Shown here one piece after another: positions 32,107 to 35,858 of a stretch of DNA of 64,000 bases. Within the stretch, counting starts at the first letter, position 1, and each line of letters opens with the position of its first letter. Source of the stretch: Clostridia bacterium (lineage in GTDB: Bacteria > Bacillota > Clostridia > Christensenellales > Borkfalkiaceae); assembly GCA_017626305.1 (NCBI GenBank), contig JAGAIW010000138.1:62001-126000 (forward strand), written 5' to 3'. Under the pieces are notes generated by a model, which made no database searches, was not told the origin of the DNA, and was given only the letters and a program-made list of their open reading frames with translations. Position numbers and translations under genes: made by a program.

Positions 32107-33366
<1,260 letters not shown>

Positions 33367-33452: not shown

Positions 33453-34295
33453 ATGAAAAGATTTTTCAAAACGCTTGCAGTCGTGCTTACCGCTGCGATT
33501 TGTTTCGTGTTTACCGCATGCAGCGGCAAACCCGTTAAGGTAATGAAAGATATTCTTCTCACCGAAGAAGACTACGCTTTTGCTATCAACAAGGACAACG
33601 ATACCTTACGTGAAACGGTAAACGGCTACCTTGCCGAATGGGCGGAAGACGACAGCTTGGATACGTTGATTAACTCGTACTTCAACGGCTCGGCTACCTT
33701 CACCTACACCAACAAGACCAACGCGCCTGCAAAAGACGACTTCGTTATGGCAACCAACGCGGCGTTCCCCCCGTTTGAATACAAAAAGGGTTCGGCGTTC
33801 GCCGGGATTGACGTAGAGCTTGCCTATAAAATCGCCACCAAGCTCGGCAAAAATCTGTTCGTCTTTAACATGGACTTTAACGCAATTATTTCCAGCGTTA
33901 AAACGGGCGAAAGCGATATCGGTATGGCGGGTATGACCGTCAACGCTACCCGTTTGAAGGACGTAGATTTCGCTACGCCTTACTATACTTCCGCGCAGGT
34001 AATTACCGTTTTGCAGGAAGACACCACCTTTGACAAATGCAAAACGGCTACCGACGTAGAAAATATTTTGAAAGCCAAAGGCAAGGACTACACGATCGGC
34101 GCGCAAAACGGCACGACGGGGTATATGTACGCAAAGGGCAACGTCGACTTTGAATACGACGGCTTTACCAACTTGACGACGAAGGGCTACAACACGGGCG
34201 CTTTGGCTATGACCGATTTGTCCAACGGAAAAATTAACGCCGTTATTCTTGACTTACAGCCGTCGCTTATGATTGCGCAGAGCACCAACAAATAA
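33453..34295 (+). CDS. Amino-acid ABC transporter binding lipoprotein, apparently circularly permuted
   Basis: A 280-residue periplasmic-binding-protein-like lipoprotein. The signal ends in the lipobox FTAC, with lipidated Cys23. The main body (about 93-275) is a family 3 solute-binding protein: FVMATNAAFPPFEYKKG, GIDVELAYKIATKLGK, GESDIGMAGMTVNATRLKDV and IGAQNGTTGYMY. Residues 36-80 (LTEEDYAFAINKDNDTL, then a helix ending LINSYFNG) look like the segment that normally ends such proteins (LTEEEYAIAV... to KYF). The C-terminus stops at the hinge strand. So the usual C-terminal helix sits at the front. It feeds the permease and ATPase that follow. Confidence 0.88.
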   Translation: MKRFFKTLAVVLTAAICFVFTACSGKPVKVMKDILLTEEDYAFAINKDNDTLRETVNGYLAEWAEDDSLDTLINSYFNGSATFTYTNKTNAPAKDDFVMATNAAFPPFEYKKGSAFAGIDVELAYKIATKLGKNLFVFNMDFNAIISSVKTGESDIGMAGMTVNATRLKDVDFATPYYTSAQVITVLQEDTTFDKCKTATDVENILKAKGKDYTIGAQNGTTGYMYAKGNVDFEYDGFTNLTTKGYNTGALAMTDLSNGKINAVILDLQPSLMIAQSTNK

Positions 34296-34297
34296 GT

Positions 34298-34990
34298 ATG
34301 AGCAGTATACAAACGTTTTGCGAATACTTTTTCACGTACGGGGGGTATAAGGACTATTTGTACGGGCTGTCCAACACCGCGCTTATCGCGGTGTTTGGGC
34401 TGTTAATCGGTTTCGTTATCGGCTGCTTGATTGCCACGGTGAAAATTTTCCCCACGAAAAATCCCTTTATCGTCGTTTTGGAAACGATTGCCGACGGATA
34501 CGTCGCGCTGTTCCGCGGTACGCCGATTGTCGTACAGCTTTTGCTGTTGCATTTCGGGTTATTCCCCTTACTGGGCATTGATTTGGACGCCGTCGTTGAA
34601 GCGATTATTATCTTCGGTTTAAATTCGGGCGCATATATGTCCGAAATTTTGCGCGGGGGTATCAACGCCGTAGACGCAGGGCAAATGGAAGCGGGACGCT
34701 CGCTGGGGTTTGGGTTTGGCGAAACCATGCTGCGTATCATTTTACCGCAAGCCATTAAAAATATCCTGCCCACGCTTGGCAACGAATTTATCGCGCTCTT
34801 AAAAGAAACGTCCGTCGTCAGCTTTATTGCGGTAATCGACGTTACCCGTTCGCTGCAAAGTATCGCCGATTCGACGTACGAATATTTCGTGCCGTATATC
34901 GTACTTGCCATCACCTATCTCGTGATTGTGCTTGTCATCACGTATTTTATCCGTATCATGGAAAGGAGATTGTCGAAAAATGAGCGATAA
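34298..34990 (+). CDS. Amino-acid ABC transporter permease
   Basis: A 230-residue HisM/GlnP-type permease with about five membrane helices. The N-terminal [19 protein letters not shown] and [19 protein letters not shown] are family hallmarks. The EAA loop that docks on the ATPase is near residues 122-150 ([19 protein letters not shown]). It starts 2 bases after the binding-protein stop with no strong ribosome binding site, so it may rely on coupled translation. It overlaps the ATPase gene by 11 bases. Confidence 0.94.
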
Positions 34991-35858
34991 CGTAATACTT
35001 TCCGTCAAAAATTTATATAAAAAATTCGGCAAACTAGAAGTACTCAAAGGCATTGATATCGACATTAAAAAAGGCGACGTCGTTGCCGTAATCGGCCCGT
35101 CAGGCTGCGGAAAATCCACCTTTCTTCGCTGTTTAAACCGCTTGGAAACACCAACCGCTGGTGAAATATTATTTGAAGGCAATTACATTTTCAAAAACGA
35201 ACGCATTTATTTAAAGCAACGCTTAAAATCTTTTGTCTTGCCCAAGAACGCGGACGACGCCACAAAAACGGAGTACGAAAACTTAAAAGCGGAATACGCG
35301 GCTTTGCGTAAAGAAGAAAAAGCCATTGAAAAATACCTGCAAAAGCATTTGGATTTACACCGCCAAAAAATCGGTATGGTTTTCCAGCAGTTTAACTTAT
35401 TCCCCCATCTTACCGTCCTGCAAAACGTCACGCTCGCCCCTATTCGTTTAAAAAAACTTTCGCAAGAAGACGCTCAAGCGCAGGCGCAAAGGCTGTTAAA
35501 ATTAGTCGGCTTGGAAGATAAGGCAAACGTATACCCGTCCACTCTTTCGGGCGGACAAAAACAGCGTATCGCTATCGTGCGCGCCTTAGCTATGAGCCCC
35601 GACGTCATGCTGTTTGACGAGCCCACTTCCGCCCTTGACCCTGAAATGGTCGGCGAAGTGTTAAAGGTTATCACCGACCTTGCTAAGGACGGTATGACCA
35701 TGGTGGTGGTTACGCATGAAATGGGCTTTGCCAAGGAAGTGGCAAACCGCGTTATTTTCATGAGCGAAGGCGTTATCAAGGAAGAAAACGAACCCAAGGC
35801 GTTCTTCGCAAATCCCAAAGACGAACGGTTGAAGGAATTCCTTTCCAAAGTACTCTAA
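34980..35858 (+). CDS. Amino-acid ABC transporter ATPase with helical insertion
   Basis: A 292-residue GlnQ-type ATPase. Walker A is GPSGCGKST (about residues 37-45), the Q-loop is [13 protein letters not shown], the signature is LSGGQKQR and Walker B is [13 protein letters not shown]. It is about 50 residues longer than the usual 240. The excess is a charged, probably helical insertion between Walker A and the Q-loop (about residues 70-125, with [19 protein letters not shown]). GAAAGGAG precedes ATG 34980; a longer reading from 34926 lies inside the permease and is rejected. A terminator follows. Confidence 0.94.

Follow-up and report, generated by a model that had tools for sequence, protein, structure and literature searches.

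A gene at positions 33453-34295 (+ strand) of a 64,000-nucleotide stretch of Clostridia bacterium DNA, hereafter the window, encodes a 280-aa lipoprotein (start codon ATG) related to the family 3 amino-acid binding proteins, and raises the question of whether its chain runs in the order that this family normally shows. An earlier note on this DNA had read the gene as an amino-acid binding protein in circularly permuted form, with the C-terminal segment moved to the front. Our joint reading, which we consider highly probable, is that the gene encodes a lipid-anchored, circularly permuted solute-binding protein (SBP) of a polar amino-acid ABC importer, and that this permuted form would have arisen by duplication and trimming.

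Chain order of the window protein

The protein begins with a signal peptide and lipobox, as read from the sequence (33453-33521); the lipobox, FTAC at residues 20-23, is intact, as had been claimed, and residue 23 (codon 33519-33521) would be the lipidated cysteine. Between the lipobox and the body of the protein lies a segment of two strands and two helices (residues 28-79; 33534-33689), which is the counterpart of the canonical C-terminal segment. A linker that would connect the old C-terminus to the old N-terminus follows (residues ~80-93, with limits estimated from alignment A1; 33690-33731), and then the body (33732-34292), which comprises the first part of lobe 1 and most of lobe 2 and terminates in VILDLQPSLMIAQSTNK. 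The canonical order is the first part of lobe 1, then lobe 2, then the last part of lobe 1. The window protein departs from it by opening with the end of lobe 2, followed by the last part of lobe 1, and is thus classed as a circularly permuted SBP_bac_3 homologue rather than a canonical member. Two boundaries in the earlier note had to be shifted: the moved segment, placed there at residues 36-80, does have C-terminal homology but starts near residue 28 (strand VKVMKDI), and the body does lack the C-terminal segment but, instead of reaching the hinge strand, stops a little ahead of the second hinge, within lobe 2.

Family homology is clear from the Pfam SBP_bac_3 model (PF00497; 93.7 bits against a curated cut-off of 26.4), and the match is limited to residues 98-207 (profile positions 2-98 of 132), which is the pattern expected of a permuted protein. 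When PDB chains were searched with phmmer, body residues 98-269 aligned with residues 13-167 of the arginine-binding protein ArgBP (6svf), and query residues 8-78 (the good part being ~28-78) matched the C-terminus of the same chain (160-228) out of order, with an i-E of 0.03. This second match improved to i-E 1.5e-7 (6svf) and 3.6e-6 (4zv1) with a 13-row profile. The tandem SBD1-SBD2 junction of GlnPQ (6h30) was crossed colinearly (query 40-272, chain 186-397); this tandem apart, none of the 60 highest-ranking profile matches in the PDB, out of 114, showed the permuted order. The matches listed from plasmid records for a permuted query (15 of 239) look canonical in order or tandem.

Profile-profile comparison by hhalign, using 111 permuted homologues and 15 canonical genes, aligned the moved segment to the canonical C-terminal segment with a probability of 97.9% (E 5.8e-13). 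When the canonical profile was taken in full, the segment matched with an E value of 4e-11, and the next match was at only E 0.4. A single alignment of 231 columns, which crosses the junction, joined the full permuted profile to a doubled canonical profile (E 3.1e-46). These sequence comparisons confirm that the out-of-order match is far beyond chance, and with it the circular permutation that had been proposed. Residues 28-79 could in principle be an unrelated N-terminal domain that merely resembles C-terminal helices, since helical segments can give weak matches by chance; this reading, to which we assign next to no probability, is refuted by the strength of the segment homology, the sole other match to the canonical profile being that at E 0.4, and by DNA from genus g336 (below), in which the segment has left the 3' end and follows the lipobox instead.

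Predicted fold, operon and function

AlphaFold2, given the mature window protein and 78 homologues, predicted one compact fold (mean pLDDT 96.3, pTM 0.89) with 249 of 258 residues at a pLDDT of at least 90, the moved segment included (elements in mature numbering: E6-8, E15-19, H28-43 and H46-55). A separate domain at residues 36-80, which the earlier note regarded as the outcome that would count against a permutation, is not what the model predicts: the segment, at pLDDT 96-98, appears to be seated in its own fold, where it would complete lobe 1. Using VIA-align, model residues 71-258 superposed on residues 26-196 of ArgBP 6ggv (Z 17.9, rmsd 1.9, 170 aligned), and most rows left unaligned the first residues of the model and the last of the target, which is unavoidable when a sequential aligner meets a permutation; Foldseek agreed. 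GlnH 1wdn aligned to the model as far as residue 171, and by its numbering, with the GlnH lobe limits that we assume, the cut falls in the small lobe. Type II binding proteins for amino acids or opines, and relatives of these, made up the structural matches listed (Z 15.4-17.9); type I binding proteins were absent from these lists, which does not exclude type I matches.

The C-terminal helix of Thermotoga maritima ArgBP is domain-swapped, and ArgBP is among the best matches of the body, which suggests an alternative in which the moved segment completes the chain of a neighbour, in a domain-swapped dimer or chain. The model, however, is a one-piece monomer with a pTM of 0.89, and the linker seems to have the length needed for the chain to close on itself; we regard a swap as very improbable. 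Under the preferred reading, a permuted protein closed on itself, the linker would bridge the former C- and N-termini, which both belong to lobe 1, and the chain would be cut in lobe 2 immediately before the second hinge. Both new termini, the anchored N-terminus and the free C-terminus, would thereby come to lie on lobe 2. As the ligand residues are kept, the protein should close its lobes on the amino acid and deliver it to the permease in the canonical manner.

These ligand residues, which we take to be an Arg on the lobe 1 side and an Asp in lobe 2, were scored across canonical ORFs and three classes of permuted ORFs, all cut in lobe 2: cut I, the class of the window gene; cut II, that of a paralogue in the same genome; and cut III, at the start of lobe 2. 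The Arg (state 74) is present in 66/67 canonical, 120/122 cut I, 27/27 cut III and 2/2 cut II ORFs, and the Asp (state 156) in 66/67, 116/122, 27/27 and 2/2, respectively. Both R167 and D267 are invariant in alignment A1, from which the ligand Asp of the window protein was read. A lipobox was found in 64/67 canonical, 116/122 cut I, 26/27 cut III and 2/2 cut II ORFs. The permutation may bring a benefit from anchoring through lobe 2. We rejected a shorter anchor tether as the benefit: median lengths are 11 in canonical, 9 in cut I and 11 in cut III proteins, no useful difference.

Immediately 3' of the window gene lies an amino-acid ABC permease gene of the HEQRo/3TM subfamily (34298-34990, +, 230 aa), overlapped by a GlnQ-like ABC ATPase gene (34980-35858, +, with a probable ATG start at 34980); the three genes form one operon of the polar amino-acid type. 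Comparison with three relatives, among which L006 and L034 count as one gene, or almost, indicates purifying selection (pN 0.19-0.215 against pS 0.74-0.80); the row of L005, read in a wrong frame, is left out. With Arg and Asp kept, selection acting and the operon intact, these genes are best read as encoding a working amino-acid importer: the lipoprotein is most likely its working binding protein, and the system would bind and transport amino acids. Between its Walker A motif and its Q-loop, the operon's ATPase carries an insert of ~52 aa with many charged residues (window 35190-35345); it is comparable to inserts in the relatives L257 and L258 and is missing in L255. Upstream of the SBP gene, a divergent gene (32107-33354, -) presumably encodes a queuine tRNA-ribosyltransferase-like protein, and an ORF resembling it also lies upstream of the permuted gene at locus L023.

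Spread and origins of the permuted forms

Within the genus, 39 of 57 genomes gave a match, and 13 rows (L004-L016) were in permuted order from residue 28 or earlier, with four more distant ones besides. The family sample yielded matches in 223 of 301 genomes; the 150 matches listed comprised 81 in full permuted order (from 80 genomes), 12 with the cut III pattern, 53 covering the body only and 4 others. Scanning of genome contigs left 80 loci kept out of 565 confirmed. Every one of these 80 carries a homologue of the permuted form, and the N-terminal segment is colinear in 79 of them (L058 is aberrant). The records are mostly metagenome bins of Clostridia; Thermobacillus xylanilyticus XE and Thermoclostridium caenicola DSM 19027 are isolates among them. 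A gene that is degenerate or misassembled (a frameshift, a truncated copy or an assembly error) might likewise lack the canonical end at its C-terminus, yet the missing piece is intact and conserved at the front, pN is far below pS, and the form recurs in the 80 loci from other genomes; this spread and the isolates refute a frameshift, pseudogene or misassembly, whose probability we put close to nil. The earlier claim of an organised permutation rather than a frameshift thus holds, given the intact frame, lipobox and ligand residues, the order common to the kept loci and the one-piece model.

As an unbiased detector of cut sites, we used the canonical profile doubled to 440 positions (period 220), in which start positions of 95-102 denote cut III and 161-169 cut I. 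At the level of the class, 295 of 341 genomes matched, and the 150 matches listed comprised 121 canonical, 17 cut III, 8 cut I, 1 tandem and 3 partial rows; the partial rows resolved into cut I (G886 and G995) and an internal duplication of lobe 2 (G802). In the phylum 339 of 398 genomes matched, and nearly all of the 150 matches listed were canonical, with one cut III (G550) and two tandem rows (G672 and G438); a separate search added one cut III (G384) and one cut II (G400) row. Permuted forms therefore seem frequent in the window's class and rare outside it. Every observed cut is in lobe 2, and no lobe 1 cut occurred among the 300 matches listed in the class and phylum searches. With a cut III protein as query, the 60 top-ranked of 110 PDB matches held no chain in permuted order apart from the tandem 6h30, whose colinearity spans two domains. 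Labels were assigned by end state, or by hand for 15 split matches and for L150, L154, L183, L187 and L175. All fetched ORFs, duplicates included, comprised 142 cut I, 27 cut III, 2 cut II and 69 canonical ORFs and three with no rule-based label, counts that are no measure of frequency as the sample was drawn largely with permuted queries. Two cut I proteins of family f1 (L183 and L187) have altered motifs of the GTTG type and a body interrupted by long inserts.

The rearrangement can be read in DNA in genus g336, where the same locus (three neighbouring gene clusters in common, followed by SBP, permease and ATPase genes) carries a cut I gene in G754 and G886 and a canonical gene in G779, G846, G977 and G825. 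G995 (cut I), G944, G925 and G1012 share the SBP, permease and ATPase genes within the stretch compared. After rotation, cut I and canonical proteins are up to 81-84% identical (G754-G779 and G995-G779). In the DNA of G754 and G779, the upstream region and signal peptide are colinear (G754 1-424, G779 3-424; 70%); 149 bases (~150 bp) from the canonical 3' end (G779 1000-1148) now lie behind the lipobox (G754 427-575; 81%), followed by the body (G754 628-1142, G779 460-989; 83%) and the downstream region (G754 1186-1249, G779 1191-1255; 83%). G886 shows the same pattern, as does G995 with no upstream match. In the g336 tree the permuted rows lie among canonical ones, and a single permuted clade was not rejected (AU test, p = 0.155); since canonical G779 adjoins permuted G995 (96/97), a single event, one event plus a reversal and two separate events are equally possible.

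For a wider tree, 78 rows were folded into canonical order (220 columns), excluding L002 and L058, near-copies by identity thresholds and rows with fewer than 165/220 states filled. It requires 11 changes among the four states (cut I, 5; cut III, 5; cut II, 2), and in 0 of 200 bootstrap trees did cut I, cut II or cut III form a single clade. AU tests rejected one clade for cut I (p = 4e-50; 20 rows), for cut III (p = 2e-5; 21 rows) and for all permuted rows (p = 5e-6; 43 rows). Within the window's own genome, the cut II paralogue (L003, contig C142) pairs with the third family 3 gene, which is canonical (L001; 100/98), both on long branches and with only 35% identity. Whole permuted operons might instead have been transferred from one or two ancient events, the tree overstating the number of origins: it has 220 columns only, 14 of its 75 inner branches are open, and the cut I gene of Thermobacillus, a member of the Bacilli, is close to those of Clostridia. 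This we judge unlikely, as the AU tests reject a single clade, the cut sites differ, the g336 change occurred in situ and spared the signal peptide and the terminator region, and the cut labels are independent of the tree, though the rows were chosen by us. Judged from sequence, several separate permutations of family 3 SBPs in related bacteria is the reading we retain.

Most likely, the mature domain would first have been duplicated in tandem and in frame downstream of a single signal peptide; the first copy would then lose its front and the second its end, leaving a permuted gene, and this route would have been repeated in Clostridia. G672 looks like the expected intermediate type, as a single signal peptide precedes two in-frame canonical copies (528-aa frame; 80.2% identity over 227 residues). 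In G802 (L256), lobe 2 is duplicated in frame (397-aa frame; 66% over 86 residues), and the duplication ends near cut sites I and III. For the window gene, no close canonical relative was found, and we therefore infer its duplication route from another genus, g336.

Permuted units also occur fused to permeases: as cut III register arrays of three units in G746 (L253) and two in G438 (L254), as one cut III register unit in G701 and G997 (the permease part of the latter rests on a 501-aa frame), and as a cut I SBP and permease in one frame of 532-548 aa in L007 (1360-2964), L190 and L191. In G746 and G438 the register of each unit opens in lobe 2 and closes with the first part of lobe 1, and each lobe 1 could pair with the preceding or the following lobe 2, making the pairing ambiguous. 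A broader proposal, which is possible though we lean slightly against it, is that permutation is a standing habit of clostridial family 3 SBPs: in-frame duplication would yield the registers, selection would keep only lobe 2 cuts as a moved anchor or permease alters docking, and the shifted genes would then be fused to permeases as one-, two- and three-unit arrays.

Comparison with known systems

Natural circular permutations are usually viewed as rare and ancient, and are reconstructed from distant homologues. Here one textbook family offers several cut sites and origins, a within-genus case with readable DNA and a duplicated gene of the intermediate type, so that the duplication route and the effect of shifting the anchor become testable with close natural pairs. 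We found no earlier report of permuted family 3 binding proteins in the open-access literature searched. They matter for annotation, because domain models cover only part of them, and also for the design of biosensors, a field in search of artificial permutants of such binding proteins.

Once rotated, the window protein is homologous over its whole chain to the SBP_bac_3 proteins GlnH, ArtJ, T. maritima ArgBP and AncQR, and shares with them the ligand residues and the setting of a lipoprotein with a permease and an ATPase; unlike them, it has the C-terminal segment first and its termini on lobe 2, whereas theirs are on lobe 1. It is colinear across the SBD1-SBD2 junction of Lactococcus GlnPQ (6h30), a tandem fused to a permease, but GlnPQ has two whole domains in canonical register and the window protein one domain in shifted register.

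A natural permutation in a lipid-anchored ABC binding protein is also found in TpMglB-2 (Tp0684) of Treponema pallidum, a sugar-binding lipoprotein for which the class 'Type Ic / Cluster Bc' was proposed and which, in the parts of the report consulted, has relatives in Gram-positive gut bacteria (PMC4990184). Its authors suggested anchoring as a possible reason for the permutation (PMC4990184). TpMglB-2 differs in having a type I sugar-binding fold, of a different family from the window protein, and its permuted part is only 13% identical to the canonical one in the alignment given there (PMC4990184). The parts consulted describe no canonical ortholog at the same locus (PMC4990184), whereas the g336 locus has both canonical and cut I genes.
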